From contig JAGGVB010000221.1 of assembly GCA_021158245.1 (NCBI GenBank), positions 1 through 39,237 of the forward strand: a stretch of DNA of 39,237 nucleotides, read 5' to 3'. This DNA comes from a bacterium. GTDB lineage: Bacteria; Zhuqueibacterota; QNDG01. The position numbers and the translations under genes are program-made. This document shows positions 7,144-38,861 of this stretch, in pieces. The notes under the pieces were generated by a model that did not search any database, was not told the origin of the DNA, and saw only the letters and a list, made by a program, of their open reading frames with translations. Position 1 is the first letter of the stretch. Every line of letters starts with the position of its first letter.

Positions 7144-9138
7144 ATGGCAGAACAACAGAAGAATAAAAACAGTTCTTCCGACAATAAGAATAATTTTCAA
7201 TGGAAGAAAGCCACAAGAACACTATTTTTCTGGATAATACTTTTTTTGGGAGCAGCTTATATCTTTCAGCTTTTCAGTTCTCAGAAGACACGGGAAGTGG
7301 AGGTTACATTTTCAGAATATCAGCAATATCTGCAGAGCAATGCAATTGAAAAAGCAAATATTCAGAGTGGTATATTTCATGGTGTGCTTAAATACGAAGA
7401 GAGCCTGGTGCAGGGCAATAATGTTGAAAAGTTCAAGAGGTTCAGAACAAATCTGCCCTTTATAGACAGAAACATGGTAGAGCAGTGGGATGCTAAAGGC
7501 TTTAAATATGAATTTAAAAAGAAACCTGCTGAGATCTGGAATTTCATTATACCTATGCTGCCGTGGCTTCTTCTAATTTTTCTTTATTTTTTCTTTATTA
7601 AACGTATGCAGTCAGGCGGAGGCACAAAAGGCATTTTTAATTTCGGCAAGAGCAGGGCAAAAATGCTTAATGCCAATATGACGAAGGTCACATTTAAAGA
7701 TGTTGCTGGAGCAGATGAGGCAAAGCAGGAGCTTCAGGAGATAATAGAATTTTTAAAAAATCCCCAGAGGTTTCAAACACTTGGCGGCCGTATTCCCAAA
7801 GGCGTACTTCTTTTGGGGCCTCCGGGCACAGGAAAAACTCTTCTTGCGAGAGCTGTAGCCGGAGAAGCAGGGGTTCCCTTTTTCAGTCTTTCCGGAGCTG
7901 ATTTTGTTGAGATGTTTGTGGGAGTAGGTGCTTCAAGGGTAAGAGACCTTTTTGAACAGGGCAAGAAAAGCGCTCCATGCATAGTTTTTATTGATGAAAT
8001 AGATGCTGTAGGCAGGCACAGGGGAGCAGGGCTCGGCGGCGGGCATGATGAGAGAGAACAGACATTAAACCAGCTCCTTGTTGAAATGGATGGATTTGAG
8101 ACTAATGAGGGCGTGATACTTCTTGCGGCTACAAACCGTCCGGATGTTCTTGATAATGCACTTTTAAGGCCGGGCAGATTTGATCGTCAGGTTGTTGTTG
8201 ACAGGCCTGACATGAGGGGAAGAGAAGGAATATTAAAAGTGCACACAAAAAAGATACCCCTTGCCAAAGATGTAAAACTTGACATTATAGCTAAGGGTAC
8301 TCCGGGTTTTTCCGGTGCGGATATTGCAAATCTTGTAAATGAAGCAGCCCTTCTTGCAGCAAGGAAAGGCCAGAAAAAAGTATTCATGCCGGATTTTGAA
8401 GAAGCTAAAGACAAGGTTATGATGGGTGTGGAACGGAAAAGCATGTTAATCAATGATGAAGAAAAGAGAAGTACTGCTTATCATGAATCCGGCCATGTCC
8501 TTGTTTCAAAATTTATTAAGGGCTCGGATTCTGTACACAAGGTGACAATTATACCAAGAGGCAGGGCACTCGGATTGACATCTTTTTTGCCGATTGATGA
8601 AAAACACAACTATACAAAAACTTACTGCAAAGCACTTCTTGCTCACATTCTCGGAGGGCGGGCTGCAGAACTCCTCATTCTTAACGAATTGAGTACAGGA
8701 GCAGGAAACGATATTGAGAAAGCAACTGAGATAGCAAGAAAAATGGTGTGTGAATGGGGTATGAGTGACAAACTCGGGCCTGTTACTTTCGGTAAAAAAT
8801 CAGAAGAGATTTTTCTCGGCAGAGAAATATCCCAGCATCGTGATTACAGTGAAAAAACTGCAATACTGATTGATGAAGAGATAAAAACAATTGTAAATGA
8901 AGCAGCTGATATGTCCTTTAAAATTTTAAAGGATCATGTAGATATTCTTCATCGCCTTGCAGAGGTGCTGCTTGAACGGGAGACACTGGACGGCGAAGAG
9001 GTTGATTTAATCATAGATGGAAAAACTCTCCCGGATAAAATTAAAACAAATTCCAGAAAGCGTAAAACTCCCGGCAGAGCAAAAGCGCGGAAACCTGCGG
9101 CAACTAAAGCATCGGGGAAAAAGGACAAAAAGGCGTAG
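7144..9138 (+). CDS. ftsH: ATP-dependent zinc metalloprotease FtsH
   Basis: FtsH is the membrane-anchored hexameric AAA+ protease that degrades misfolded membrane proteins and some regulators. Of the 664 residues, two membrane helices (about 26-43 and 133-152) enclose a small periplasmic domain. Then come Walker A GPPGTGKT (225-232), Walker B VFIDEIDA (281-288), the second region of homology [20 protein letters not shown] (329-348) and the zinc-binding HESGH (447-451), a tolerated variant of HEAGH. The C-terminal 30 or so residues are very rich in Lys, Arg, Ala and Pro, an unusual basic tail. It lies between tilS and a TPR membrane protein with 29-base gaps on both sides, and no terminator was seen, so co-transcription with tilS is likely. 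Confidence 0.97.
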
Positions 9139-25892: not shown

Positions 25893-25994
25893 TGTAATGT
25901 ATTTTATTGAAAATTTCTTGTAATACTGACATGGATTGTTTAAGTTTATAGCGTACTTTTTTATTTGTACTTACATCATTATTGGAGGAGCAGA

Positions 25995-26549
25995 ATGTTA
26001 GAAATAAGATTTCACGGGCGTGGAGGACAGGGAGCAGTGAAAGCGTCCGACATTCTTGCCATGGCAGCTTTTGCTGAGGGAAAAGAAGTACAGGCTTTTC
26101 CCTTTTTTGGCGTGGAAAGAAGAGGAGCTCCTGTTACAGCTTTTACACGGATAAGTGACAACGAAATTAGAATTCATTCTTATATTTATGAACCTGATAT
26201 TCTTGTTGTTCTTGACCCTGGCTTAATAGGCGCAGTTCCGATTACAGACGGCCTTAAACCCGGCGGCAAGATAATTATCAATTCTTCGAGGAAACCTGAT
26301 GAGTTTTCATTCCCGGAAGTAAAAGATGTATCGGTTTTTACAGCTGATTGTTCTATGATAGCTCAAAAATACGGGCTTGGAAGCAAAGCCGCTCCAATTG
26401 TTAACACAACAATTTTAGGCGCAGTTGCCAAAGCAACAGGAATCATTAAAATAGATTCTATCTGTGATGCGATTATGACAAAAATACCTATTAAAAAGGA
26501 AGAAAATGCTCAGGCAGCTCGTGAAACATTTGAGAATGTATTGAGCTAG
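25995..26549 (+). CDS. porC: Pyruvate/2-oxoacid:ferredoxin oxidoreductase, gamma subunit
   Basis: This is the gamma subunit of the four-subunit POR complex, which oxidatively decarboxylates pyruvate or another 2-oxoacid to acyl-CoA with reduction of ferredoxin. The 184-residue protein opens with EIRFHGRGGQGAVKASDI (3-20), the family hallmark that helps bind CoA, and carries FPFFGVERRGAPVTAF and ILVVLDPGLI. The ATG at 25995 is chosen because GGAGGAG lies 4 bases upstream; an upstream start at 25965 would add ten unlike residues. It is the first gene of the POR/IOR/Buk/Ptb block, and delta follows 9 bases on. The true 2-oxoacid is not fixed by sequence, though the four-subunit order gamma-delta-alpha-beta fits pyruvate synthases. 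Confidence 0.93.
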   Translation: MLEIRFHGRGGQGAVKASDILAMAAFAEGKEVQAFPFFGVERRGAPVTAFTRISDNEIRIHSYIYEPDILVVLDPGLIGAVPITDGLKPGGKIIINSSRKPDEFSFPEVKDVSVFTADCSMIAQKYGLGSKAAPIVNTTILGAVAKATGIIKIDSICDAIMTKIPIKKEENAQAARETFENVLS

Positions 26550-26558
26550 GAGGTCGGA

Positions 26559-26852
26559 ATGGCTGAAAAAGATGATAAGAAAATAGATATAAAAGGTGCT
26601 TCTGATATGCCGCCAATGGCTGCTTCACTTGGCAGTATGCGGCAGAACAAGACAGCTTCATGGCGATCAATTCGTCCGATAATTGACGAAGATAAGTGTA
26701 AAAACTGTATGATTTGCTGGAAATTTTGTCCGGAGCCTGCGATATTTCCTACTGCTCCGCCGACAATTGACTATGATTTTTGCAAAGGCTGCGGAATATG
26801 TATTGAAGAATGTCCCTTTGATGCTATCTCATCAGTAAAAGAGGGAAAGTGA
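26559..26852 (+). CDS. porD: POR delta subunit (2x 4Fe-4S ferredoxin)
   Basis: The delta subunit passes electrons from the POR core to ferredoxin. It has 97 residues and two cluster motifs: CKNCMICWKFCPEP (Cys47, 50, 53, 57) and CKGCGICIEECP (Cys75, 78, 81, 85). The first 40 residues form a lysine-rich, flexible leader before SWRSIRPIIDEDKC, typical of this subunit. An AGGAGG ribosome site stands 5-6 bases before ATG. It lies 9 bases after gamma and 13 before alpha. Confidence 0.95.
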   Translation: MAEKDDKKIDIKGASDMPPMAASLGSMRQNKTASWRSIRPIIDEDKCKNCMICWKFCPEPAIFPTAPPTIDYDFCKGCGICIEECPFDAISSVKEGK

Positions 26853-26865
26853 GAGGAGGTAGAAT

Positions 26866-28020
26866 ATGAAAAAAGTACTAACAGGGAATTTTGCAGCAGC
26901 CTATGGAGCTACAGCTGCACGAGTTAATGTTGTGGCAGCTTATCCTATTACTCCTCAAACTACTATTGTTGAAATTCTTTCGGAGATAGTAGCTGACGGA
27001 AAGCTTAAAGCGGATTTTGTTAAGGTAGAATCGGAACATTCAGCTCTTGCAGCAAGTATTGGTGCTGAAGCTGCCGGAGCAAGAACTTTTACTGCAACAT
27101 CATCTCAGGGCCTTGCTTTAATGCATGAAGTACTTCATTGGACTGCACGTGCAAGGCTTCCCATTGTATTGACTAATGTAAACAGGGCACTGGCGCCTGG
27201 ATGGTCAATTTGGGCAGATGCCACAGATTCAATTGCACAGCGGGACACCGGCTGGATGCAGGTTTATTGTGAAAATAATCAGGAAGTTTTTGATACTGTT
27301 ATAATGTCTTATAAAATTGCTGAGAATAAAGATGTCCTGCTTCCGGTATTGGTAAATCTTGATGCATTTTTTCTTTCACATACGTCGCAAGTTGTTGATC
27401 TGTATGATGAAGAAACTATTGATTCATTTTTGCCTCCTTACAACCCTGAATATAAACTTGATGTTAATAATCCGCGGTCTTTCGGGGCTTTGACATCTCC
27501 TGAACATTATTTTGAGTTTTCATATAAAATTCAGAATGCTCATAATGATGCAAAAGAAATTATACGAAGTGTCGGAAAAGAATTCGGAAAGATTTTTGGC
27601 AGAGAGTATGGGTTAGTGGAAGAATACAGATGTGATGATGCTGAAGAGATTTTAGTAACATACGGTACTATTGCAGGTACGACAAAAGATGCAGTTGACC
27701 GATTAAGAGAGAAAGGCCACAAAGCCGGAGCACTCAAAATAAGGTATTTCAGGCCGTTTCCAGAAGAAGAAATAAGAGAAGTACTGTCAAAGGCAAAAAA
27801 AGTCGGTGTTATTGACAGGGCTATTTCGTTTGGCCATGAAGGCCCATTCTTTACTGAAGTTAAAGCCGCACTTTATAAAACAGGAGCGGCTGTTCCTGTT
27901 TACGGTTTTGTAACAGGGCTTGGCGGGCGCGATGTATCTATTGCAGATATAGAAAAAATTCATAGCCATATGAAGAATAATGAGCCTGAGAACCTTATTT
28001 GGATAGGAGTAAAGAAATGA
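26866..28020 (+). CDS. porA: POR alpha subunit
   Basis: The alpha subunit holds the pyrimidine-binding domain that contacts thiamine diphosphate and the 2-oxoacid. Of 384 residues, visible hallmarks are AYPITPQTTIVE (25-36), VESEHSALAASIGAEAAGARTFTATSSQGL (57-86), with a glutamate at the cofactor, NRALAPGWSIWADATDS and, in the third domain, GHEGPFFTEVKAAL and YGFVTGLGGRD. It resembles thermophile PorA in size and order. Substrate preference (pyruvate against another 2-oxoacid) cannot be settled from sequence. The ribosome site is AGAGGAGG, and the last codon overlaps the beta start (ATGA). Confidence 0.95.
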   Translation: MKKVLTGNFAAAYGATAARVNVVAAYPITPQTTIVEILSEIVADGKLKADFVKVESEHSALAASIGAEAAGARTFTATSSQGLALMHEVLHWTARARLPIVLTNVNRALAPGWSIWADATDSIAQRDTGWMQVYCENNQEVFDTVIMSYKIAENKDVLLPVLVNLDAFFLSHTSQVVDLYDEETIDSFLPPYNPEYKLDVNNPRSFGALTSPEHYFEFSYKIQNAHNDAKEIIRSVGKEFGKIFGREYGLVEEYRCDDAEEILVTYGTIAGTTKDAVDRLREKGHKAGALKIRYFRPFPEEEIREVLSKAKKVGVIDRAISFGHEGPFFTEVKAALYKTGAAVPVYGFVTGLGGRDVSIADIEKIHSHMKNNEPENLIWIGVKK

Positions 28021-28928
28021 ATATTGAAAAAAAGGTAAAACTCACTATACCAGAGCATGAGGTTATGTCACCTGGCCATCTTGCATGTCAGGGCTGCGGT
28101 GCTGCTCTTGGAATGCGTTATGCGCTGAAGGCTCTGGGAGAAAAAACAATAGTATCAATCCCTGCCTGTTGTTGGGCTGTAATTGACGGGCCTTTTCCAT
28201 ATTCGGCAGCGGGAATACCCGTATTCCATTGTGCATTTGAAACAGCTGCATCAACTGCTTCGGGAATAACACATGCTTTAAGCCAGCTTGGTAAGGATGA
28301 TGTTACAACTCTTGCATGGGCAGGTGACGGCGGTACATTTGATATCGGACTCCAAGCTCTTTCAGGAGCTGCTGAAAGAGGCGATAATCTTATCTATATT
28401 GTTTATGATAACGAAGCTTACATGAATACAGGCATTCAGCGATCTTCTGCAACCCCTCATGGTGCATGGACAACTACTACACCTGTGAAACATTATAAAA
28501 CGGGCCCGAAGAAGAATATTGTAGAAATTATGGTTGCACATCATATACCGTATGTTGCGACAGCAAATATAGCCTATCCCGAAGATTTTATTAAAAAGCT
28601 CAAAAAAGCAAAAGAGATAAAAGGAGCAAAGTTTATCCATTTGTATGCTCCATGTCCGACAGGTTGGAAGCATCCTCCGGGAATTACAGTGAAGGTTGCA
28701 CGTCTTGCTACTGAAACAAATGTATTCCCGCTTTATGAGGTAACTGACGGTGTATACAAAATTAACAAGTATATAAAAAATGTTAAACCTGTTGAAGAAT
28801 ATCTTAAGCTGCAGGGCCGTTTCAGGCATCTTCATGCAGACGAGATTGATTTCATTCAAAAAGAAGTAAATAATAATTGGGCTAGGATTGAAAAGATGGA
28901 AAAAGCTTTTGGCGAGAATGCAGATTAA
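28017..28928 (+). CDS. porB: POR beta subunit (thiamine diphosphate and 4Fe-4S)
   Basis: The beta subunit binds the thiamine diphosphate pyrophosphate and one 4Fe-4S cluster. It has 303 residues. The thiamine motif is GDGGTFDIGLQALSGA (103-118) with YDNEAYMNTG (130-139). Cys24 and Cys27 (CQGC), Cys51 or Cys52 and Cys213 (APCPTGW) are placed as the four cluster ligands known in this family. The ATG at 28017 overlaps the alpha stop as ATGA; a TTG 18 bases upstream would add six residues. It closes the POR set and is followed by IOR after 33 bases. Confidence 0.95.
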   Translation: MNIEKKVKLTIPEHEVMSPGHLACQGCGAALGMRYALKALGEKTIVSIPACCWAVIDGPFPYSAAGIPVFHCAFETAASTASGITHALSQLGKDDVTTLAWAGDGGTFDIGLQALSGAAERGDNLIYIVYDNEAYMNTGIQRSSATPHGAWTTTTPVKHYKTGPKKNIVEIMVAHHIPYVATANIAYPEDFIKKLKKAKEIKGAKFIHLYAPCPTGWKHPPGITVKVARLATETNVFPLYEVTDGVYKINKYIKNVKPVEEYLKLQGRFRHLHADEIDFIQKEVNNNWARIEKMEKAFGENAD

Positions 28929-28961: not shown

Positions 28962-30737
28962 ATGAAAGAGATACTATCAGGAAATGAAGCTATTGCGAGA
29001 GGATGTTACGAATATGGCGTTCATGTTGCTACTGCGTACCCTGGTACTCCCAGTACAGAGATACTTGAAAATATTGCCAAATATTCTGAAATCTATAAGG
29101 AGTGGTGCCCTAATGAAAAAGTAGCTCTTGAGGTTGCAATAGGAGCAACTTTTGAAGGAGCACGAACTCTCGTTGCAATGAAACATGTAGGGCTGAATGT
29201 TGCCGCAGACCCGTTTATGTCTGTAAGCTTAATAGGATCACCGGGCGGCCTGATTATTGTCAGTGCTGATGATCCGGGCATGCACTCTTCACAAAATGAG
29301 CAGGATAACAGATTATATGCACGCTTTGCAGGATATCCCTGCCTTGAGCCATCTGACAGCCAGGAAGCAAAAGATTTTGTCGGGGAAGCTTTAAAGTTAA
29401 GCATTGATTATGATGTTCCTGTACTCCTTCGGATTACAACCCGTGTCTGCCATGCAAAAGGTGTTGTGGCTACAAAAGATCGTAAAGAGTATCCTGTGGC
29501 AGGATTTAAAAGAAACCCTCAGAAATTTGTTATTTTGCCTTCTATTGCAAGAGATCTTCACGTAAAAGCTGTTGACCGGCTGGAAAGATTGAAACAGGCT
29601 TCGGAAAATAGTTCAATTAACAGGCTTGAGCAGGGGACAATGGATGTGGGAGTTATTACGAATGGTGTTTCCTATCAGTATGTTAAGGAGGTATTACCAG
29701 ATGCCTGGGTCCTGAAACTCGGCATGAGCTATCCGCTTCCAATGAAAAAGATTGAACTTATTGCATCTAAAGTTAAAAAGCTTTTTGTTGTTGAAGAGCT
29801 TGAACCTGTAATTGAAGAACAGATTAAAGCTGCCGGAATAAAGTGTGAAGGGAAAAAATACTGGTCAAATCTTGGTGAATTTTCTCCTGAGAGAGTTGCA
29901 CAAGGCTTTGCAGAAGCCGGTGTGATTGACGTAGAAAAAAGGATTGAAACAAATGATAAAGAGGATGTAGTTCCCCGCCCTCCGATTTTTTGTCCGGGAT
30001 GCCCTCATAGAGGGCTCTTCTATTCTTTGAAGAAAGTTAAAGCACTTGTAACAACTGATATAGGATGTTATACTCTGGGCGCGCTTCCTCCTATTGAAGC
30101 AGGCGATACTTGTGTGGAAATGGGTGCATCAATAGGCGTAGGAGTAGGTATTGCCAAAGCGAGGAAAGACGGAAGAGGAATTGTCGCTACTATTGGAGAT
30201 TCCACTTTCTTCCATTCAGGCATGACTGGGCTTCTGAATGCTGTAAACGATAATTCGGGAATTACAGTGGTAATTGCAGATAACAGTATTACTGCAATGA
30301 CAGGCGGCCAGTTTCATCCGGGCACAGGCGAAACTCTTGATGGAGACATTGGTGCAAAAGTTGATAAAGTCAAAATATGTGAAGCTCTAGGTGTAAAACA
30401 TATCAGAAAAGTTGATCCGTATGATTTGACTGCAACAAGAGAAGCTTTAAAGGAGGAAATGGAACGTGACGAGCTTTCAGTTATTATTACAACACGTCCG
30501 TGTGCACTATTCCCGCCTGAGATGAGAAAGCTTGTAAAACAGACACCATTTACAGTTGACCTTGATAAATGTATCGGATGTAAAACATGCTTCCAGGTAA
30601 GTTGCCCTGCAATAGGGCTTTCTGATGAGAAGACAGATAAGGGCCTGAACAAATCACATATTGATGCATCTTTATGTACAGGATGCTCGGTATGCGCACA
30701 GGTTTGTCCGGTAAATGCAATCGTTCCTATGAAATAG
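28962..30737 (+). CDS. iorA: Indolepyruvate ferredoxin oxidoreductase, alpha subunit
   Basis: IOR oxidises aryl pyruvates from Trp, Phe and Tyr to arylacetyl-CoA, reducing ferredoxin. The 591-residue alpha subunit has the N-terminal pyrimidine-binding domain (YPGTPSTEILE, KVALEVAIGA and MKHVGLNVAADP), CPGCPHRG in mid-protein and the thiamine domain with GDSTFFHSGMTGLLNAV and ADNSITAMTGGQFHPG. It ends in a ferredoxin tail: CIGCKTCFQVSCP and CTGCSVCAQVCP, two cysteine quartets. The combination is the standard IorA arrangement. With POR beside it, several amino-acid-derived 2-oxoacids could be handled. GAGGTAAGT lies upstream of the ATG. Its partner iorB begins 11 bases past its stop. Confidence 0.95.
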   Translation: MKEILSGNEAIARGCYEYGVHVATAYPGTPSTEILENIAKYSEIYKEWCPNEKVALEVAIGATFEGARTLVAMKHVGLNVAADPFMSVSLIGSPGGLIIVSADDPGMHSSQNEQDNRLYARFAGYPCLEPSDSQEAKDFVGEALKLSIDYDVPVLLRITTRVCHAKGVVATKDRKEYPVAGFKRNPQKFVILPSIARDLHVKAVDRLERLKQASENSSINRLEQGTMDVGVITNGVSYQYVKEVLPDAWVLKLGMSYPLPMKKIELIASKVKKLFVVEELEPVIEEQIKAAGIKCEGKKYWSNLGEFSPERVAQGFAEAGVIDVEKRIETNDKEDVVPRPPIFCPGCPHRGLFYSLKKVKALVTTDIGCYTLGALPPIEAGDTCVEMGASIGVGVGIAKARKDGRGIVATIGDSTFFHSGMTGLLNAVNDNSGITVVIADNSITAMTGGQFHPGTGETLDGDIGAKVDKVKICEALGVKHIRKVDPYDLTATREALKEEMERDELSVIITTRPCALFPPEMRKLVKQTPFTVDLDKCIGCKTCFQVSCPAIGLSDEKTDKGLNKSHIDASLCTGCSVCAQVCPVNAIVPMK

Positions 30738-30748
30738 ATGAGGTTTTC

Positions 30749-31327
30749 ATGAGCAGAGGAAAAAATGTTCTTATTGTAGGCGTTGGCGGGCAGGGTGTCC
30801 TCCTGGCCAGTGAAATATTAAGTTCTGTTGCTGTTGAAGCAGGCCTTGATGCAAAGAAGAGCGAAGTGCATGGAATGTCACAGAGGGGCGGTGTAGTATC
30901 AAGCCATGTACGATTTGGTGAAAAAGTATTTTCTCCTCTTATTAAAGAGGGCGAAGCTGATGTGATTCTTGCGTTTGAAGAGGCTGAAGCTTTAAGGTGG
31001 CTCCATTTTCTTGACAAAGATGGAGATATTATTGTGAATGAGTACAGGCTCGTTCCTCCTATTGTTGTTACAAAAAAATTGAATTACCCGGAAGATCCTG
31101 TTTCTATTATCAAGAGTAAGGTGAATAATGTAAAGAGTATTGATGCTGAAGCTGCTGCACGGGAAATCGGTAATCCGAGATTGGTAAATACCATCCTTCT
31201 CGGGGTCTTGTCGCAATCTATTGATATTGATGAAAAAGTGTGGAAAGACGTTATTAAACGGCGTGTACCCAGGGGTACGGAAGATATTAATTTACAGGCA
31301 TTTGTGAGAGGTAGAGAATATAAGTAA
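30749..31327 (+). CDS. iorB: Indolepyruvate ferredoxin oxidoreductase, beta subunit
   Basis: IorB is the gamma-like small subunit of the IOR enzyme. Its 192 residues start with NVLIVGVGGQGVLLASEILS, then KKSEVHGMSQRGGVVSSHVRFG, both family signatures, and it contains PRLVNTILLGVLS. The ATG at 30749 was chosen because GAGG lies 6 bases upstream and the sequence then starts at the usual place. Longer reading would begin inside iorA in another frame. It lies between iorA and the first butyrate kinase with a 19-base gap. Confidence 0.94.
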   Translation: MSRGKNVLIVGVGGQGVLLASEILSSVAVEAGLDAKKSEVHGMSQRGGVVSSHVRFGEKVFSPLIKEGEADVILAFEEAEALRWLHFLDKDGDIIVNEYRLVPPIVVTKKLNYPEDPVSIIKSKVNNVKSIDAEAAAREIGNPRLVNTILLGVLSQSIDIDEKVWKDVIKRRVPRGTEDINLQAFVRGREYK

Positions 31328-31346: not shown

Positions 31347-32411
31347 ATGGAGAAAGTCCTTGCAATTAATCCCGGATCTACTTCCACAAAGATTGCTCTT
31401 TATGACGGGGATTCTGAATTGTGGGCAGAAAAAATATCTTACTCAAAAGAGAGAATAAGTGCTTTTGAAAAGATAACAGATCAAATGGATATGAGAAAAT
31501 CTGACATTGAGAATGTTCTTAAAGAAAAGAATATTTCTGCCGGAGGCCTTGATGCTGTTGTGGGAAGAGGGGGGCCGTTTAAACCTCTTGCCAGCGGAAC
31601 TTACAGGGTAACGCCTGCCTTGATTAAAGATGTTAAAGAAGGCAGGGTTCAGGCGGAACATATATCTAACATCGGCCCATTGCTTGCATTTGATTTGTCT
31701 GAGAAAGACGGGATACCGTCCTTTTTTGTAGATCCCGTATCTGTTGACGAATTTAATCCAGTTGCACGTTTTTCCGGAATTCCGGAGCTTGAACGGAAAA
31801 GCCTTGTTCATGCTTTGAACGTAAAGGCTACTGCACATAAAGAAGCCATGAGACTGGGAAAATCGCTTAATGAATTGAATTTTATTGTTGCCCATCTCGG
31901 AGGCGGGATATCTATATGCCCTGTGATGCAGGGAAAGATTGTTGATGCAAATAATGCCAATGAAGGCGGGCCATTTTCACCGGAAAGGGCAGGTTCTCTG
32001 CCCTCGTCTTCTCTTGTAAAGCTATGTTATTCCGGGAAATTTTCATACAATGAATTGAAAAAAAGAGTTGTCGGAAATGGGGGGCTTTCTGCATATCTCG
32101 GCACAAATGATCTTATGGAAGTTGTTGATAGAATCAGAGAGGGTGATTCTGAATCTGAGCTTGTTTTCGATGCAATGATTTATCAGATTGCAAAAGAGAT
32201 TGGTGCTATGGCAGCTGTTTTAAGAGGAAAGATTGATGCTGTTATTCTTACAGGAGGAATGGCACGGGAAGAATTGCTGATAAAAAAACTTGAACCACTT
32301 ATATCCTTTCTTGGACCTGTTAAAGTTTATCCGGGCGAAAATGAGATGGAGTCGCTTGTAATGGGGGTACTAAGAGTGCTCAGGAAAGAAGAAAAGGAAT
32401 TAATATATTAA
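31347..32411 (+). CDS. buk: Butyrate kinase, first copy
   Basis: Butyrate kinase makes ATP from an acyl phosphate and ADP, the last step of substrate-level phosphorylation in many fermenters. The 354-residue protein is of the ASKHA acetate-kinase fold. INPGSTSTKIALYDGD (6-21) is the phosphate-1 loop, VVGRGGPFKPLASG follows near 70, HALNVKATAHKEA is central, HLGGGIS and GPFSPERAGSLPSS lie in the active site, and ILTGGMA is the adenosine motif. The ATG follows GGAGAATGG. The next gene is a paralogue of similar length, and both are followed by phosphotransbutyrylase genes. Real substrates could be branched-chain or aryl acids; sequence does not settle this. Confidence 0.95.
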   Translation: MEKVLAINPGSTSTKIALYDGDSELWAEKISYSKERISAFEKITDQMDMRKSDIENVLKEKNISAGGLDAVVGRGGPFKPLASGTYRVTPALIKDVKEGRVQAEHISNIGPLLAFDLSEKDGIPSFFVDPVSVDEFNPVARFSGIPELERKSLVHALNVKATAHKEAMRLGKSLNELNFIVAHLGGGISICPVMQGKIVDANNANEGGPFSPERAGSLPSSSLVKLCYSGKFSYNELKKRVVGNGGLSAYLGTNDLMEVVDRIREGDSESELVFDAMIYQIAKEIGAMAAVLRGKIDAVILTGGMAREELLIKKLEPLISFLGPVKVYPGENEMESLVMGVLRVLRKEEKELIY

Positions 32412-32455: not shown

Positions 32456-33535
32456 TTGGGAAAAGATTATAAGATTCTTGCTATAAACCCGGGCTCCACT
32501 TCAACAAAAATTGCTGTCTTTGAGAATGCGAAATGTTTATGTACTAATTCCATATCGCATTCTACAGATGAGATAGCAAAATTTCATAATATTGCAGATC
32601 AGTATGAATATAGAGCAAGACTTATTGAAGAACTGCTTGATAAAGAGAATGTAGATATAAATTCAATTGATGTTGTTGTGGGCAGGGGAGGTTTGTTGAA
32701 ACCAATTCCCAGTGGTGCGTACAAGGTAAATGATAAAATGGTAGAAGAACTACGGTCTGCGAAGTATGGAGAGCATGCTTCAAATCTCGGAGCTATGATT
32801 GCATCCAAGATTGGGAAAGATATTGGAGTAGAAAGTTATATTGTAGATCCTGTTGTTGTTGATGAAATGGAACCGATTGCTAAAATATCAGGTATGCCTG
32901 AAATTCAGAGAAAATCGATATTCCATGCATTAAATCAGAAGGCAGTTGCAAGAAAGGCTGCAGGAAAACTCGGAAAAGATTACAGTGAGGTTAATCTTAT
33001 AGTTACCCATCTCGGTGGAGGTGTTTCAGTAGGCGCTCATAAAAAAGGGCGTGTTATAGATGTTAATAATGCACTTTGCGGTGACGGGCCTTTTTCACCG
33101 GAAAGATCAGGCGGCTTGCCTGCGACCCAGCTTCTTGATCTTTTGCTAAGCGGACAGATGACCGAAAAAGAAATAAGAAAGCGGCTTATAGGTAATGGCG
33201 GGATTGTTGCGTATCTTGGGACAAACGATATGCGGAAGGTTGAAAACGATGTTAAAAATGGCGATGAGAAAGCAATTTTGTATCAAGAGGCAATGGCTTA
33301 TCAAATAGCAAAAGAAATAGGATCATGTGCAGCTGTCCTTAATGGCGAAGTAGATGCGATAATTTTTACTGGCGGGCTTGCCTATGACGAGTTATTTATT
33401 AAAAAATTAGAGAAAAAAGTTGCATGGATCTCAAAGATTCTTGTGTTCCCCGGAGAAGAGGAGATGGAATCTCTTGCTTGTGGTGTGCTTAGAGTGGTTC
33501 GGGGTGAAGAAGAGCCCAGAGAATATACCGGCTGA
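32456..33535 (+). CDS. buk: Butyrate kinase, second copy
   Basis: This is a 359-residue paralogue of the preceding kinase, clearly related yet diverged throughout, so it is not a recent duplicate. It has INPGSTSTKIAVFENA (9-24), VVGRGGLLKPIPSGAY, HALNQKAVARKAAGKLGK, THLGGGVSVGAH, GDGPFSPERSGGLPATQ and IFTGGLAYDE. All motifs look intact, so both copies should be active. The start is TTG, chosen because AAGGAG lies 8-9 bases upstream and the residues after it match the family start. It sits 44 bases after the first copy and 20 before ptb. A different chain-length preference from the first copy is likely but not shown. Confidence 0.95.
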   Translation: MGKDYKILAINPGSTSTKIAVFENAKCLCTNSISHSTDEIAKFHNIADQYEYRARLIEELLDKENVDINSIDVVVGRGGLLKPIPSGAYKVNDKMVEELRSAKYGEHASNLGAMIASKIGKDIGVESYIVDPVVVDEMEPIAKISGMPEIQRKSIFHALNQKAVARKAAGKLGKDYSEVNLIVTHLGGGVSVGAHKKGRVIDVNNALCGDGPFSPERSGGLPATQLLDLLLSGQMTEKEIRKRLIGNGGIVAYLGTNDMRKVENDVKNGDEKAILYQEAMAYQIAKEIGSCAAVLNGEVDAIIFTGGLAYDELFIKKLEKKVAWISKILVFPGEEEMESLACGVLRVVRGEEEPREYTG

Positions 33536-33555: not shown

Positions 33556-34467
33556 TTGAAAATGATTGAAAGGCTTGATGAGCTTGTCAATGAAGTAAAG
33601 GACTCACCTACTAAAACAATTGCTGTTGCAGCCGGGCACGATTATGAGACTATGCTTGCTATTAACCGGGCTACAAATGAAAATGTTGTCCGCGCTGTAC
33701 TGGTTGGTGACAAAAGTAGAATGGAACAGGTTGCAAAAGAGCATTCTATTGATCTGACCAAATTTGAAATTGTCAACATTGAAGATGAAGTTGAGGCTGC
33801 TGTTGAAGCCGTAAAGTTAGTCGGAAGCAAGAAAGCCGACCTTCTTATGAAGGGTTCTGTAAAAACCGCGGAATATATGAAGGCAATTCTTCACAGAGAA
33901 TACGGGCTGCTTCCACCGGGAAGCCTTTTATGTCATATTGCAGCTCTTGAAATACCCACATATCATAAACTTTTAATAATTTCCGATGCAGCAATTATTC
34001 CGCTGCCTGATTTAACTCAGAAGATACAATTAATTAAATACACAACCGAGGTTGCAAGGTATTTGGGAATTGAATTGCCGAAGGTTGCTATTTTATCAGC
34101 AGTAGAAACTGTTAATCCAAGGATACCTTCATCGGTCGATGCTGCTATTATGACTTTGATGAATAGAAGAAATCAGATAAAAGGTGCAATACTTGACGGC
34201 CCTCTTGCACTTGATGTAGCTCTTTCAAAAGAGGGGTGCAGAATAAAAGACCTTGAGAGCCCTGTTGGCGGAGATGCAGATGTGCTTATTTTCCCAAATA
34301 TTGAATCTGCAAACATTTTTTATAAAAGCTCAACAGTAATTGCCGGAGGAAAAACTGCTGCAGTAGTTGCAGGCACAACAGCTCCTGTGGTTTTAACTTC
34401 ACGAGCTGATAATGATGATTCAAAATTCTATTCAATTGTTCTTGCTGCAAAACTTTCTGAAAAATAG
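33556..34467 (+). CDS. ptb: Phosphate butyryltransferase, first copy
   Basis: Ptb swaps CoA for phosphate on butyryl-CoA or similar acyl-CoA, giving the acyl phosphate used by Buk. The 303-residue protein is of the PTA_PTB family: IAVAAGHDYETMLAINRA, LLMKGSVKTAEYMKAILHREYGL, IISDAAIIPLPDL, GAILDGPLALDVALS and GGDADVLIFPNIESANIFYK are visible. An AGGAGG site at 33545-33550 is 5 bases before the TTG and 11 before an in-frame ATG at 33562; the TTG is preferred for spacing. It ends 13 bases before a hairpin. It belongs to the POR-IOR-Buk block. Confidence 0.94.
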   Translation: MKMIERLDELVNEVKDSPTKTIAVAAGHDYETMLAINRATNENVVRAVLVGDKSRMEQVAKEHSIDLTKFEIVNIEDEVEAAVEAVKLVGSKKADLLMKGSVKTAEYMKAILHREYGLLPPGSLLCHIAALEIPTYHKLLIISDAAIIPLPDLTQKIQLIKYTTEVARYLGIELPKVAILSAVETVNPRIPSSVDAAIMTLMNRRNQIKGAILDGPLALDVALSKEGCRIKDLESPVGGDADVLIFPNIESANIFYKSSTVIAGGKTAAVVAGTTAPVVLTSRADNDDSKFYSIVLAAKLSEK

Positions 34468-34479
34468 ATTTTTAATAAA

Positions 34480-34510
34480 TGCCCGGTGTTGTATTATGTA
34501 TAACCGGGCA
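34480..34510 (+). terminator. Hairpin between ptb and cobO
   Basis: TGCCCGGT (34480-34487) pairs with ACCGGGCA (34503-34510) around a 15-base loop. The stem is GC-rich, but the T tract after it is poor (TTGGTACGTTT), so it may be a weak terminator, an mRNA-stabilising hairpin or an attenuator that separates the upstream butyrate genes from cobO and the second ptb. No cobalamin-riboswitch box is visible in the 97-base gap. Confidence 0.55.
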
Positions 34511-34564
34511 TTGGTACGTTTGCTGTTAATTTTAATGCGTTTTGATATTTAGAGGGATGATTTT

Positions 34565-35104
34565 ATGGATACAAACGATAAATCCGGTTTAGGGCTGATT
34601 CATGTATACACGGGAAACGGCAAAGGGAAAACAACTTCTGCTCTCGGGCTTGGATTAAGGGCAACAGGCCATGGTTTCAGAGTACTAATGGTTCAGTTCA
34701 TGAAGGGAGACCCGTCTTACGGAGAAGTTATAGCAGTAAGTAAAATAGATAATTTTAACCTTATCCAGTCAGGACTGCCCACATTTGTGAAAAAGGGAGA
34801 ACCTTCCGAAGAAGACCTGAGCCTTGCAAAGGCAGGTTTTGAAAAATGTTATGAAGCCGTAACAAATGGAACCTATGATATTGTAATTATGGATGAGATA
34901 AATGTGGCAGTTAATTACGGATTAGTCCGGCTGCAAGACGTGCTGAGCCTTATTGATAAAAAATCAAAAAATGTTGAGCTGATTCTTACAGGCCGTTATG
35001 CAGATGAGAAAATTATTGAGAAAGCTGATCTCGTAAGTGAAGTGCAGGAAATTAAACATCCGTTTACAAAAGGTATTCCTGCACGCAGAGGAGTGGATTT
35101 TTAA
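34565..35104 (+). CDS. cobO: ATP:cob(I)alamin adenosyltransferase (CobA/BtuR type)
   Basis: This enzyme attaches the 5'-deoxyadenosyl group of ATP to cob(I)alamin, making the coenzyme needed by radical B12 enzymes. Its 179 residues contain the P-loop GNGKGKTTSALGLGLR (18-33), VLMVQFMKGD, the core IVIMDEINVAVNYGLV and LILTGRYADEKIIEKADLV and the closing EVQEIKHPFTKGIPARRGVDF. The ATG has GAGGGATGA upstream. It lies between two phosphotransbutyrylase genes, an unusual position, since the gene normally sits with cobalamin genes. This suggests that a B12-dependent mutase or similar step feeds the same acid-forming route. No such enzyme gene is in the window. Confidence 0.94.
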   Translation: MDTNDKSGLGLIHVYTGNGKGKTTSALGLGLRATGHGFRVLMVQFMKGDPSYGEVIAVSKIDNFNLIQSGLPTFVKKGEPSEEDLSLAKAGFEKCYEAVTNGTYDIVIMDEINVAVNYGLVRLQDVLSLIDKKSKNVELILTGRYADEKIIEKADLVSEVQEIKHPFTKGIPARRGVDF

Positions 35105-35127
35105 TTTTACAATTTAAGGAGGAGTCC

Positions 35128-36024
35128 ATGCTTGGCAATTTTAATGAAATTTTAAATGCTGCAGTAAAACATGGAGGAAGAAAGATAGCAGTTGCAGGGG
35201 CAGAGGGTGCAGCAGTGCTCACTGCACTTAAGATTGCAAAGGAAAAAGGAATTGCAGAGCCAGTGTTAGTTGGTAATCAGAAAAAGATTGAAAAAATTGC
35301 CCAAGATGTTAACTTTGATATAAGTGGTGTTCTAATTTGCAATAAAGAAGATGAAACGGATGCTGCAGAAAAAGCTGTGGAGATCGTGGATAATGGTGAG
35401 GCCTCCGCTTTAATGAAAGGCAAGGTAAGTACTCCGGTTCTTTTAAAAGCTGTACTGAATAAGAAATATAATCTCAGGACAGGAAGGCTGTTAAGCCATG
35501 TAACTCTGCTTGAGCTGCCTGAATACCACAAATTGATGATTATTTCAGACGGGGGGATGGTAATATATCCGACACTTGAACAGAAAAAAGAGATTATAAA
35601 GAACAGTATTGAAGTTATACATAAACTCGGAATTGATAGGCCGAAAATAGCTGTTTTAGCAGCTATTGAAAAGGTGAATCCCGGCATGGTTGAGACTGAA
35701 GATGCGCAGGCTTTGGCAGAGATGGCTAAAACCGGTGAATTCGGCGATGTTATTCTTGAAGGCCCTCTTGCTATGGATGTTGCCATGTCCAGAGAAGCAG
35801 CGGAGATTAAAGGTATAAGCAGCAAAGTCAGCGGGGATCCTGATATATTGATTGTACCAAACATAGCGTGTGGAAATATTTTGGCAAAGAGCCTGATATA
35901 TCTCGCAAAAGCAAGAATCGGCGGAGTAATTGCAGGTGCCAGGAAGCCTGTTATCCTGCTTTCACGGGCAGATAATGCAGAAACAAAGCTCAATTCTATT
36001 GCTCTTGGCGTTGCATCAAGCTGA
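35128..36024 (+). CDS. ptb: Phosphate butyryltransferase, second copy
   Basis: A 298-residue member of the PTA_PTB family, diverged from the first copy across its whole length. Landmarks are IAVAGAEGAAVLTALKIA, ALMKGKVSTPVLLKAVLNKKYNLR, LLSHVTLLELPEYHKLMIISDGG, DVILEGPLAMDVAMSREAAEIKG and GDPDILIVPNIACGNILAKSL. It follows cobO by 23 bases with a strong AAGGAGG site before ATG. Having two Buk and two Ptb genes suggests dedicated pairs for different acyl groups, but which Ptb works with which Buk cannot be read from the sequence. Confidence 0.94.
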   Translation: MLGNFNEILNAAVKHGGRKIAVAGAEGAAVLTALKIAKEKGIAEPVLVGNQKKIEKIAQDVNFDISGVLICNKEDETDAAEKAVEIVDNGEASALMKGKVSTPVLLKAVLNKKYNLRTGRLLSHVTLLELPEYHKLMIISDGGMVIYPTLEQKKEIIKNSIEVIHKLGIDRPKIAVLAAIEKVNPGMVETEDAQALAEMAKTGEFGDVILEGPLAMDVAMSREAAEIKGISSKVSGDPDILIVPNIACGNILAKSLIYLAKARIGGVIAGARKPVILLSRADNAETKLNSIALGVASS

Positions 36025-36053: not shown

Positions 36054-37115
36054 ATGGTACAGGTAAACAGGGACTGCAAATTTTACAGGGGGGATATACC
36101 CTGCACTTTTCATAAATCCGAAGGTGTACACTGTTCGGAGTGCCCCTATTATACAAAGATCAGTAAAAAAATTCTTATTATTAAACTCGGCGCTATTGGC
36201 GATGTTATAAGGACAACTCCTCTGATAAGGAGATTTGAGAAAGAGTTCCCTGATGCGCAGATCCACTGGCTTACAAATTTTCCTGATGTTGTACCATCTT
36301 CTGTAGATTATATCTATTCCTTCAATCCAGAATCAATTGAAATTTTAAAGAACATGAAGTTTGACCTTCTCCTGAATCTGGATAAAGACCGCGAAGCATG
36401 TGCTCTTGCAAACAGAATTGATGCTGATGATAAAAAAGGATTTGTTTTAAAAGACGGATTTTGTTTTCCTGTTGATCAACCTGCTCATGATAAGTGGCTT
36501 ACAGGATTGTTTGATGACCTTAATAAATTAAATACAAAGAGCTACCCTGAAGAAATTTTTGCAATGTGCGGATTGGAGTATAATAAAGAGGAGTACATTG
36601 TTGAGGTAGAGGATAAAATTGAGTGGAATATACCCGGAACAGGGAAAATAATAGGGTTAAACACCGGGTGCGGAGACAGATGGGAAACACGGTTATGGCC
36701 TGTTGAGCGCTGGGTAGAGCTGTCAAAATTACTTGCTGACAAGGGGTACAGAGTCCTTCTTTTGGGGGGAGGCCAGGAAGATGAAAAGAACAGATACATT
36801 GCAAAAGAGACAGGTGCAATATATTTGGGGCATTTCCCGATAAATAGATTTTTTACACTTGTTAACCAATGCAGCCTGGTTGTTACAGCTGTAAGTATGG
36901 CTTTTCACGTGGCTCTCGGGCTTGGCAAACGGATTGTACTTTTCAATAACATTTTTAATCCTAATGAATTTGAGCTTTTCGGCCGTGGTATAATAGTTCA
37001 GCCTGATGTGCCGTGCAGAGGGTGCTTCAAAGGAAGCTGTGACAAAGATTGTATGATTTTAATTAAGGCAGGCCAGGTATTGAACGCAGTACAGAAGTTA
37101 ATTGAGCCTAAATAA
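36054..37115 (+). CDS. Glycosyltransferase family 9 protein (heptosyltransferase-like) with extra cysteines
   Basis: Family 9 glycosyltransferases add ADP-heptose or related sugars to lipopolysaccharide cores. The 353-residue protein has KILIIKLGAIGDVIRTTPLIRR (39-60), the usual N-terminal start of the fold, and VVTAVSMAFHVALGLGKRIVLF with GLNTGCGDRWETRLWPVERW in the second half. Unlike ordinary heptosyltransferases it begins with Cys8, Cys17, Cys27 and Cys30 in a leader before the fold. It ends with four more cysteines in PCRGCFKGSCDKDC. The eight cysteines could form a metal site or disulfides. An AAGGA sequence lies 8 bases before the ATG. The acceptor is unknown. It follows the second ptb by 29 bases. 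Confidence 0.85.
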   Translation: MVQVNRDCKFYRGDIPCTFHKSEGVHCSECPYYTKISKKILIIKLGAIGDVIRTTPLIRRFEKEFPDAQIHWLTNFPDVVPSSVDYIYSFNPESIEILKNMKFDLLLNLDKDREACALANRIDADDKKGFVLKDGFCFPVDQPAHDKWLTGLFDDLNKLNTKSYPEEIFAMCGLEYNKEEYIVEVEDKIEWNIPGTGKIIGLNTGCGDRWETRLWPVERWVELSKLLADKGYRVLLLGGGQEDEKNRYIAKETGAIYLGHFPINRFFTLVNQCSLVVTAVSMAFHVALGLGKRIVLFNNIFNPNEFELFGRGIIVQPDVPCRGCFKGSCDKDCMILIKAGQVLNAVQKLIEPK

Positions 37116-37157: not shown

Positions 37158-37544
37158 ATGATTAAGCAAAAAGAAAATAAAATTTTAAAGCCAGGGGATT
37201 TTCTAATTGCTTTTGTACTGTTATGCATAAGCCTGGCATTTATGCTTATTCCAAAAGAAAAAGGCAGCACTCTTTATATTAAAGTAAACGAAAAGCTGGC
37301 AGCAGTTTATTCTCTTAATCAGGCGAAAGAGAAACATGTTACGGTTAAGGGCGCTGTAGGAGAGATGCATATCTGTATTGCTGATGGAAAAGCATGGGTA
37401 ACAGATTCAGCATGTAAAAATAAATTATGCGTCAGGATGGGGAAGATAAGCAGAAACGGAGAAGTTATTGTATGTCTTCCAAACAGAGTTGTAATATCTG
37501 TCAAGAGCATAAAGGATAGAGAAATAGACGCAGTTACAATGTGA
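37158..37544 (+). CDS. NusG domain II-containing membrane-anchored protein
   Basis: The 128-residue product has one N-terminal membrane helix (about 14-31) and a C-terminal region (about 60-125) of the NusG domain II type: VTVKGAVGEMHICIADGKAWVTDS, then CKNKLCVRMGKISRNGEVIVCLPNRVVISV. Domains of this type with a membrane anchor are found beside Gx transporter genes, as here, where the next gene starts 10 bases later. The function is unknown. Its cysteine pair CKNKLC is intact. No clear ribosome site was found before the ATG, so the start is the least certain part. Confidence 0.85.
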   Translation: MIKQKENKILKPGDFLIAFVLLCISLAFMLIPKEKGSTLYIKVNEKLAAVYSLNQAKEKHVTVKGAVGEMHICIADGKAWVTDSACKNKLCVRMGKISRNGEVIVCLPNRVVISVKSIKDREIDAVTM

Positions 37545-37554
37545 GCAGAAAAAA

Positions 37555-38055
37555 TTGACAAAAAAAACAACAGAACTTGCAGTACTTACTGCAATCAGTA
37601 CAATAATTTTTACAATAGAGAGTTTAATTCCCAGCCCTGTTCCTATGATCCGGATCGGACTGGCAAATGTTATTACATTGATTGTGCTTCAATCATGGGG
37701 GGTGAGTGAAGCCTTGACTGTTATGATATTAAGAATATTTTTGGGAAGTTTGCTGACAGGACGGCTATTTAGCCCGCTTTTTGTAATGTCCATAACAGGC
37801 GGTATTGCATCAACTTTTGTAATGGCAATACTGATTAAATATTTTCAAAAGAGTGTAAGCCTTGTGGGGGCAAGTATTGCAGGTGCAGCGGTACATAATA
37901 TTGTACAGATTTATACTGCTAATCTCTTGTTCATAAAGAATATAGGCACCACATCAATCCTGCCTTTGTTTATTTTTTCATCAATAATTACAGGTACGGT
38001 TGTAGGGCTATCTGCAATTTATTCCTTAAAAGTTGTTTCTTTGAATACATCTTAA
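37555..38055 (+). CDS. Gx transporter family membrane protein
   Basis: The 166-residue protein is very hydrophobic, with about five membrane helices. It starts with TELAVLTAISTIIFTIESLIPSP and RIGLANVITL, the signature of the family formerly called heptaprenyl diphosphate synthase component I, now described as a Gx or ECF-type substrate-binding component. It continues with ILRIFLGSLLTGRLFSPLFVMSITGG and GAAVHNIVQI. The start is TTG at 37555, without a convincing ribosome site; no in-frame ATG occurs between the upstream gene's stop and this codon. The substrate is not known. It follows the NusG domain II gene and converges with DUF116, their ends overlapping by four bases. Confidence 0.87.
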   Translation: MTKKTTELAVLTAISTIIFTIESLIPSPVPMIRIGLANVITLIVLQSWGVSEALTVMILRIFLGSLLTGRLFSPLFVMSITGGIASTFVMAILIKYFQKSVSLVGASIAGAAVHNIVQIYTANLLFIKNIGTTSILPLFIFSSIITGTVVGLSAIYSLKVVSLNTS

Positions 38056-38861
38056 GCTGTAGCTTTATCCTGAGTATTAAGGAATACTTTTAAAGCTTTT
38101 TCAATTTCAGATAGATCAACAATAGTATTTTTACAGGGGCCTTCTGGTCTGGCGTTTGGTATGCCGATTACAGGAATTTTATCCAGTACATCCTGCATAC
38201 CGCTTAAAAGATCCCGTTCGCATGCAACTCCTATAATTGCTTTTGGCCTTTTTTCGTAAATAAGTTCCCTGGCCCTGGACCCTCCGGAAACAATAAAGAC
38301 CGGAACATTCAAGGATTTTGTGAGAGCTTTTATCTTATCAATATACTCTTTTCTGAGGCATCTCGGAAGAAGAATCATTAATTTTTCAGGTTTCACTTTT
38401 CTTGCAGATGATGTTATTAATGTATTGACAACTTTGACAAATGAATGCCCTATGCGGTCACGTGATATTCCTATATTCTTTGCAAGTTCTAAAACAATAG
38501 GAATCGTAAATGTAAGAGTAAATTCTTTTTTGCCGAGTTTTAAGACAAGGTGTTTTTCAAATATAATTGAAAATACAATCAATAAAAACCAGATGCCGAA
38601 TAGCGACCAGATCAGGAAAAAAAGCACTCCTGCAATAAGAGGTGCAGAAGAATGGATCTGCTGCAGACGGGGGGAGATAAGGTACCAGAAAATGAAAAGG
38701 CCAAGGCCTGTGATAAAGAGTGCGAGAAGGAGAAGCCCTATGTATAGCCGTTTTCCCGTATTGATATTTTTATTTCCGGATAAATCTCCTGTCCATCCAA
38801 GCCATTCATCGCCGAGTTTTCTGTCTTTTGTTTTAATAATATTTTTATGATGTTTTTCCAT
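38052..38861 (-). CDS. DUF116 membrane protein
   Basis: The 269-residue protein has two N-terminal membrane helices (about 39-62 and 74-100) followed by a cytosolic DUF116 domain. The three cysteines of that domain are intact: Cys168 in LLPRCLRK, Cys214 in IGVACERDL and Cys243 in GPCKNT. They could bind a metal or cluster, but no function has been shown. VSGGSRARELI and IPVIGIPNARPEGPC are visible. On the - strand GAGGAATT lies upstream of the ATG. It converges with the Gx transporter gene, overlapping by 4 bases, so no standard terminator separates them. Confidence 0.9.
   Translation of the reverse strand: MEKHHKNIIKTKDRKLGDEWLGWTGDLSGNKNINTGKRLYIGLLLLALFITGLGLFIFWYLISPRLQQIHSSAPLIAGVLFFLIWSLFGIWFLLIVFSIIFEKHLVLKLGKKEFTLTFTIPIVLELAKNIGISRDRIGHSFVKVVNTLITSSARKVKPEKLMILLPRCLRKEYIDKIKALTKSLNVPVFIVSGGSRARELIYEKRPKAIIGVACERDLLSGMQDVLDKIPVIGIPNARPEGPCKNTIVDLSEIEKALKVFLNTQDKATA
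38073..38091 (+). terminator. Weak AT-rich hairpin at the convergent gene ends
   Basis: AGTATT and AATACT form a 6-base stem with an AAGG loop, followed by four T residues, just past the Gx transporter stop and inside the last codons of the DUF116 gene. It may terminate the + strand transcript. The stem is short and AT-rich, so support is weak. Confidence 0.35.

Follow-up and report, generated by a model that had tools for sequence, protein, structure and literature searches.

A predicted corrinoid adenosyltransferase gene keeps its place between two phosphotransacylase genes within one bacterial order

The DNA analyzed here is a stretch of 39,237 nucleotides (hereafter the window) from a genome of the bacterial phylum Zhuqueibacterota, of which 23 proteins were scanned against Pfam and NCBIfam profiles with curated cut-offs in bits (Table 1). 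The final third of the window is taken up by a block of genes that all lie on the + strand. The block runs from porC, porA, porB, iorA and iorB through buk1, buk2, ptb1, cobO and ptb2 to the genes for a glycosyltransferase family 9 protein, a NusG-domain-II protein and an Hpre_diP_synt_I-family protein, and it is followed by a DUF116 gene on the - strand. Throughout the text, G000 denotes the source genome, G001 a genome of the same genus, G002 to G011 other relatives in the order, C numbers contigs and L numbers compared loci.

Table 1. Features of the block in the final third of the window, with profile scores given against their cut-offs.
Feature	Positions	Strand	Evidence
porC, 2-oxoacid:ferredoxin oxidoreductase gamma subunit	25965..26549	+	TIGR02175, 204.9 vs 81.1 bits
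porA/vorA, 2-oxoacid:ferredoxin oxidoreductase alpha subunit	26866..28020	+	NF040682, 523.8 (cut-off 550, missed); NF006232, 493.4 (cut-off 646, missed); pyruvate and branched-chain substrate both possible
porB/vorB, beta subunit, TPP-binding	27999..28928	+	NF008818, 442.5 vs 405 bits
iorA, indolepyruvate:ferredoxin oxidoreductase alpha	28962..30737	+	TIGR03336, 707.5 vs 650.9 bits
iorB, indolepyruvate oxidoreductase beta	30674..31327	+	NF005322, 255.4 vs 237 bits, residues 30-215
buk1, butyrate-kinase family	31347..32411	+	TIGR02707, 464.3 vs 289.1 bits
buk2, butyrate-kinase family	32456..33535	+	TIGR02707, 544.4 vs 289.1 bits
ptb1, Ptb/Pta-family phosphotransacylase	33556..34467	+	PF01515, 146.9 vs 24 bits; TIGR02706, 339.2 vs 410.5, missed
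ptb1-cobO gap, 97 bases	about 34468..34564	+	10-pair GC-rich hairpin possible, without a T run
cobO, CobA-family corrinoid adenosyltransferase, 179 aa	34565..35104	+	PF02572, 212.3 vs 25.7; TIGR00708, 177.5 vs 167.75; NF004637, 193.2 vs 185
ptb2, second Ptb/Pta-family phosphotransacylase	35128..36024	+	PF01515, 168.1 vs 24 bits; TIGR02706, 350.1 vs 410.5, missed
Glycosyltransferase family 9 protein	36054..37115	+	PF01075, 38.8 vs 22 bits
NusG-domain-II protein, conserved block end	37158..37544	+	PF07009, 98.7 vs 29.6 bits
Hpre_diP_synt_I-family membrane protein, conserved block end	37555..38055	+	PF07456, 135.9 vs 30 bits
DUF116 protein	38052..38861	-	PF01976, 112 vs 25 bits

Both buk products passed the butyrate kinase equivalog TIGR02707, which assigns their family by profile, with substrates that are predicted only. 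The two ptb products share 40% identity, and 'phosphotransbutyrylase' is a family-level name for them, as both scored below the cut-off of the equivalog TIGR02706. The real start of iorB probably lies inside the reading frame listed. Residues 9 to 179 of CobO aligned with the solved CobA structures 1g5r and 4hut, and the N-terminal P-loop GNGKGKTT was common to all. By family models and structure alignment, CobO is a CobA-type corrinoid adenosyltransferase with a predicted catalytic activity. This confirmed the starting observation of the original prediction, that cobO lies directly between two ptb genes, with the ptb assignment kept at the family level. Its companion claim, that cobO lies away from any cobalamin synthesis gene in view, holds among the 23 profiled window proteins.

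The porC-porA gap near the beginning of the block (positions 26550-26865 in the window) measures 310 to 324 bases in the seven genomes for which the two genes could be located. A short ORF of 98-99 aa, probably encoding a ferredoxin-like delta subunit, lies in this gap in G005, G007 and G011. At the other end, the genes for the NusG-domain-II and Hpre_diP_synt_I proteins, a pair that we take to resemble EetA/EetB of flavin-based electron transfer, close the block in all 11 genomes in which that end was seen, with 1.5 kb between them in G008. The glycosyltransferase family 9 gene was found at the same place only in G004 and G009 besides the window. Past DUF116, the next gene in relatives is often nrdJ, on the same strand.

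We compared this block across an order sample of 12 genomes, consisting of G000 and 11 relatives (G001 to G011). cobO was present in nine of them, G000 included, and was flanked by one gene of the ptb1 type and one of the ptb2 type in seven (G000, G002, G003, G004, G005, G009, and G011). The adjacency thus goes beyond chance, and the place of cobO, far from being random in relatives, is the same in six of the eight order relatives that possess the gene. In all 10 genomes with both ptb genes, ptb1 and ptb2 formed two separate orthologue groups, the upstream copy being closer to ptb1 and the downstream copy to ptb2. The slot was kept across five families of the order (f1 to f5), while the CobO proteins of the genomes that keep it have diverged to 42-56% identity. 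The remaining genomes depart from the arrangement in various ways. G006 and G008 have both ptb genes and no cobO was found in either; in G008, ptb1 is cut by the contig end, and most of a ptb1-type gene lies at the end of another contig. In G010, the ptb genes are adjacent (C212) and cobO is located elsewhere (C142), while in G007, cobO stays beside porB, and ior, buk, and ptb are gone from there. In G001, which is 80% complete, neither cobO nor a close ptb was found.

Outside the order, 38 of 87 genomes carried cobO, and none of these 38 had a Ptb match within 10 kb, as judged by eye among the matches listed, down to an E value of about 1e-9. The ptb-cobO-ptb order was likewise found in none of 23 named loci, and a search of open-licence papers, by titles and abstract openings, found no description of cobO between ptb genes. 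Thus, conservation of the arrangement was seen within one order and nowhere else among the genomes and loci compared.

The intergenic distances were short in most genomes. The ptb1-cobO distance was -4, -17, 39, 9, 39, and 16 bases in the six relatives with the arrangement, compared to 97 in the window. The possible hairpin in the window's gap had a fold z score of -1.75, and 12 of 200 shuffled sequences folded equally well, so that it is weakly significant. Simple scans found no + strand promoter or terminator in this gap, and the hairpin was not called as a terminator. A cobalamin riboswitch was considered as a means of controlling the block and was rejected, since the window holds none; the sole Rfam match at gathering threshold there is a tRNA. 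From the layout, we infer that the genes of the block would be co-transcribed.

The slot between the two ptb genes often holds a second cofactor gene. Seven of the 10 genomes that carry the ptb pair (G002, G003, G004, G006, G008, G009, and G011) have thiE, encoding thiamine-phosphate synthase, at this place, with two genes called by PF02581 and the rest by similarity. In G007, thiE adjoins cobO, while the slots of the window, G005, and G010 contain no thiE. Thiamine pyrophosphate (TPP) is the cofactor of 2-oxoacid oxidoreductases, and thiE has a direct reason to be in the slot because TPP serves the oxidoreductases at the front of the block. To our knowledge of these families, no enzyme of the block needs B12. 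Thus, unlike thiE, cobO has no reason within the block for its place.

We also evaluated which genes supply and use adenosylcobalamin (AdoCbl). CobO is the sole adenosyltransferase detected in the source genome, which gave one CobA-family match and no PduO-type match genome-wide. PduO-type genes were found in the order only in G006 and G008, which are two of the three genomes without cobO; the third, G001, shows neither type. CobS was not found in any of the 12 order genomes, while the control was positive in 10 of 14. The lack of corrin-synthesis genes near cobO would be explained by B12 import, with CobS at least not present in the genome. The absence of CobS, together with the sole adenosyltransferase, suggests that members of the order are probably B12 importers, which need only the adenosylation step, via CobO. 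The sole cobalamin riboswitch in G000 is located on the - strand of C220 at about 8080-8265, ahead of a TonB-receptor gene (L145). Downstream on the same strand lies an ECF S-component-like gene and, four genes on, the beginning of a gene for a class III ribonucleotide reductase (NRDD). This layout would fit a repression by B12 of both its import and the B12-independent reductase.

The original prediction had called for a mutase that depends on AdoCbl, and one is indeed encoded in the source genome. A single MM_CoA_mutase protein was found, on contig C108 rather than on the window contig, in an operon with a mutase small subunit, MeaB, methylmalonyl-CoA epimerase, and a carboxyltransferase (TIGR00640, TIGR00750, and TIGR03081 over cut-off; PF01039). 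At the substrate-binding columns aligned to 1req, it carries Y and R, while 4r3u, a 2-hydroxyisobutyryl-CoA mutase, has I and Q there. In P. shermanii numbering, these columns presumably correspond to Tyr89 and Arg207, located at the carboxylate of the substrate. Judged by these residues, the enzyme is a methylmalonyl-CoA mutase. Its assignment as an isobutyryl- or 2-hydroxyisobutyryl-CoA mutase is ruled out by the Y/R pair, though 4r3u is the best match in the PDB by score. No second acyl-CoA mutase with F and Q, as in isobutyryl-CoA mutase, was found in G000. Six B12-binding matches were present in total: the acyl-CoA mutase small subunit (C108), MetH-type domains (C225), radical SAM proteins with a B12-binding domain (C195, C10, and C111), and a protein of 251 aa whose only recognized domain is B12-binding (C31). 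None of the six resembled a subunit of glutamate or lysine aminomutase. The isobutyryl-CoA, glutamate, and lysine mutases, which had been proposed as alternative partners, thus have no representative among the mutase and B12-binding matches of the source genome.

G000 also encodes the class II ribonucleotide reductase NrdJ (C173:3825-5501; TIGR02504, 753.6 vs a cut-off of 399.95 bits); among solved structures, it matches the B12-dependent reductase 1xjk best. NrdJ was found in 11 of the 12 order genomes, the exception being G006, and in G011 it is represented by two pieces at contig ends. MM_CoA_mutase was present in only four (G000, G002, G005, and G010). Among the seven genomes with cobO between ptb genes, all encode NrdJ, while three encode MM_CoA_mutase. 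The mutase was not found in G003 (95% complete), G004 (76%), G009 (84%), or G011 (84%); as these genomes come from two families, contigs absent from the assemblies are improbable as the explanation for every one of them. It was not found in G007 either. Among the B12-binding ORFs of the 11 relatives, 12 were profiled. Ten of these, spread over nine relatives with two in G007, encode small corrinoid proteins typical of methyl transfer; the other two encode MetH and a radical-SAM protein. Some further B12-binding matches in relatives were judged by ORF length and the start of the sequence. In the four genomes that keep the slot without a detected mutase, the B12-binding proteins covered were all corrinoid proteins of this type, MetH, or radical-SAM proteins. 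The diol/glycerol dehydratase profile PF02286 matched none of the 12 order genomes, and no control genome either. In G006, a PduO-type adenosyltransferase is present and neither NrdJ nor MM_CoA_mutase was found, so that some AdoCbl use there is unaccounted for.

The gene for NrdJ is found close to cobO in part of the order. It is located 3.3-4.9 kb beyond cobO on the same contig, on the opposite strand behind DUF116, in G003, G004, and G007; in G008, where no cobO was found, it occupies the corresponding position beyond ptb2. Contig C228 of G009 begins with the NusG-II gene, followed by DUF116 and nrdJ, an order that would fit the layout of G003, G004, and G007. The block and nrdJ occupy separate contigs in G002, G005, and G010. 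In the window, the sequence stops 376 bases past DUF116, and nrdJ of G000 lies on another contig, C173.

The relatives of CobO point to a different neighborhood. Of 55 other CobO proteins compared, those closest to the window's were L038 (62% identity), G002:C52 (60%), and L005 (from G084, 58%), all of which are linked to mutase genes. The gene order is cobO-meaB-mutase in L038, cobO-meaB-mutase large-small in G002:C52 and in L039 (52%), and meaB-cobO-mutase small subunit in L005. The mutases of L038, L039, and G002:C52 carry F and Q where methylmalonyl-CoA mutase has Y and R, a pair that we take to be the signature of isobutyryl-CoA mutase. In G002:C52 (4119-7699, L061), the mutase genes are followed by one for acyl-CoA dehydrogenase, and the mutase itself may be an unfused isobutyryl-CoA mutase. 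G002 is the only 1 of the 12 order genomes with such a mutase, which comes with a second cobO of its own. Among other genomes of the phylum, G038 and G041 have cobO next to a mutase gene, and G017 and G024 have it near nrdJ; outside the phylum, it lies 2.9 kb from a mutase gene in G095.

In the cobO tree, the ptb-linked trait covered seven rows with three changes; the least number forced by starred branches was one, and a single origin is compatible with the tree but not established by it. The set that unites the window's cobO with L038, L040, both G002 copies, G005, G007, and G011 had a support of 94/87, below the starred level, while G003 and the G004/G009 pair fell outside it, on long branches. 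By protein similarity, the kin of this cobO belong with mutases, and the tree does not decide whether the ptb-linked copies derive from them. The cobO of G010 (C142, L068), located behind a gene of the ZnuA family and one for an ABC transporter, was placed away from the rest, with CobO of other lineages (starred sets with L050 and L049), and may represent a replacement by transfer. Over the aligned residues, CobO of G021 equals that of JdFR-76 (L042), and CobO of G015 equals that of BMS3Bbin03 (L044); JdFR-76 is closest to Caldithrix by 16S (PMC5369317) and serves as a placeholder phylum name (PMC11382960), so that a Calditrichota-like phylum is a tentative guess.

We favor, with a probability of roughly 0.6, the reading that cobO is a housekeeping B12-activating gene, which belongs with thiE to a cofactor pair inside an amino-acid-fermentation operon and serves NrdJ generally and methylmalonyl-CoA mutase where it is present. 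Imported cobalamin would be reduced, and CobO, by its predicted activity, would add the adenosyl group from ATP. The resulting AdoCbl would go to NrdJ in nearly all genomes of the order, and also to methylmalonyl-CoA mutase in those that have it, such as G000. thiE, held in the same slot between the ptb paralogues in most relatives, would provide thiamine phosphate toward TPP for the oxidoreductases at the front. The block itself is predicted to convert 2-oxoacids from amino acids to acyl-CoA, then acyl-phosphate, and lastly acid plus ATP, with no B12 step. We infer both the import of B12 and which enzyme would take AdoCbl. The sole adenosyltransferase, the lack of CobS, the riboswitch at the TonB receptor, and NrdJ in 7/7 genomes with the arrangement count in favor of this reading, as do the PduO-type replacement in G006 and G008, the separate grouping of the G010 cobO found elsewhere in its genome, the nearness of nrdJ to cobO in G003, G004, and G007, the frequent presence of thiE in the slot, and the retention of cobO and thiE in G007 without ior, buk, and ptb. 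Against it count the closest CobO kin, which sit by mutase and MeaB genes, and a mutase adjacency that is at least as frequent phylum-wide as that of nrdJ. The location of nrdJ on another contig in G000, the missing AdoCbl user in G006, and the absence of thiE from the slot of G000 and G005 also count against it.

The kinship with mutase-linked CobO proteins, including those in the isobutyryl-CoA mutase-like operons L038, L039, and G002:C52, suits a narrowed form of the original prediction, in which the acid-forming route would work together with an AdoCbl-dependent acyl-CoA mutase and cobO would be co-expressed for the coenzyme. Either Ptb/Buk would receive propionyl-CoA from methylmalonyl-CoA mutase, or an ancestral isobutyryl-CoA mutase would have interconverted butyryl- and isobutyryl-CoA. 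The complete operon in G000, with MeaB, epimerase, and carboxyltransferase, agrees with the former, as does the joint response of ptb, buk, methylmalonyl-CoA mutase, and adenosyltransferase genes to cobalamin described for Xylanibacter ruminicola (PMC11575231). By analogy, a role of Ptb/Buk in propionate formation alongside methylmalonyl-CoA mutase is possible in G000. The presence of a mutase and the conserved place of cobO thus bear out part of the interpretation. Its core, the dependence of the acid route on the mutase, is contradicted, because four relatives (4/7 of the genomes with the arrangement) keep the cobO slot without a detected mutase, as G007 keeps its cobO, and the oxidoreductase-Ptb-Buk route requires no mutase at any step. 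Moreover, the G000 operon is on another contig and its enzyme lacks the isobutyryl-CoA mutase pair, while the only isobutyryl-CoA mutase-like enzyme in the order has its own cobO. We therefore regard this account as unlikely.

It is also conceivable, if rather improbable, that cobO and thiE have no functional tie to the block, were caught in an ancestral cluster, and were retained by common descent alone. The genes of the slot come and go while the block stays, with cobO missing from it in G006, G008, and G010, thiE in G000, G005, and G010, and ptb in G007, and the neighbors are mixed, including the glycosyltransferase, the NusG-II protein, and DUF116. However, the slot has been kept over five families with short or overlapping gaps, which have the look of co-transcribed genes, and over the same time CobO fell to 42-56% identity. 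A more elaborate reading would make the slot a regulon device, which wires amino-acid fermentation to two cofactors limiting for it and for growth, TPP through thiE for the oxidoreductases and AdoCbl through cobO for B12-dependent DNA-precursor synthesis. There, cobO would have been drawn from an isobutyryl-CoA-mutase operon, in which B12 once tuned the butyrate/isobutyrate balance of Ptb/Buk. We consider this scenario speculative and quite doubtful.

If cobO is a housekeeping gene, as we favor, a B12-importing fermenter can manage on a single B12-activating gene. It also calls for caution, as cobO alone is no basis for reading a mutase into a fermentation route. The conserved slot offers a way to ask whether uncultured anaerobes coordinate their amino-acid fermentation with B12 status.

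Among known systems, the window's CobO resembles the CobA/CobO/BtuR family (PF02572, TIGR00708; CobA 1g5r) in its near full-length match, with cut-offs passed and the P-loop kept, and differs in that its gene is solitary, in a genome that lacks CobS and probably belongs to a B12 importer, rather than amid corrin-synthesis genes. The grouping of VOR, IOR, Ptb, and Buk has a counterpart in the por/vor-ior-ptb-buk genes of Cloacimonadota metagenome-assembled genomes, where these enzymes occur together and were read as branched-chain 2-oxoacid catabolism (PMC8542988). In contrast to that system, the block described here has two copies each of buk and ptb, and the ptb pair encloses cobO and often thiE; the passage of that paper on these enzymes names no such genes, and its main text is without the word cobalamin. 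In X. ruminicola, ptb, buk, methylmalonyl-CoA mutase, and an adenosyltransferase gene all respond to cobalamin with an increase, and propionyl-CoA is proposed by the authors as a substrate of Ptb/Buk; in that species, however, the adenosyltransferase is of the PduO type and not near the propionate genes, whereas here a CobA-type enzyme is encoded between the ptb genes (PMC11575231). Last, the cobO-meaB-acyl-CoA mutase operons (L038, G002:C52, L005, and L039) hold the closest CobO relatives and differ from the window block, which has neither meaB nor a mutase gene, both being on another contig in G000. Thus, all parts of the block are of known kinds, and the arrangement alone is particular to this order.
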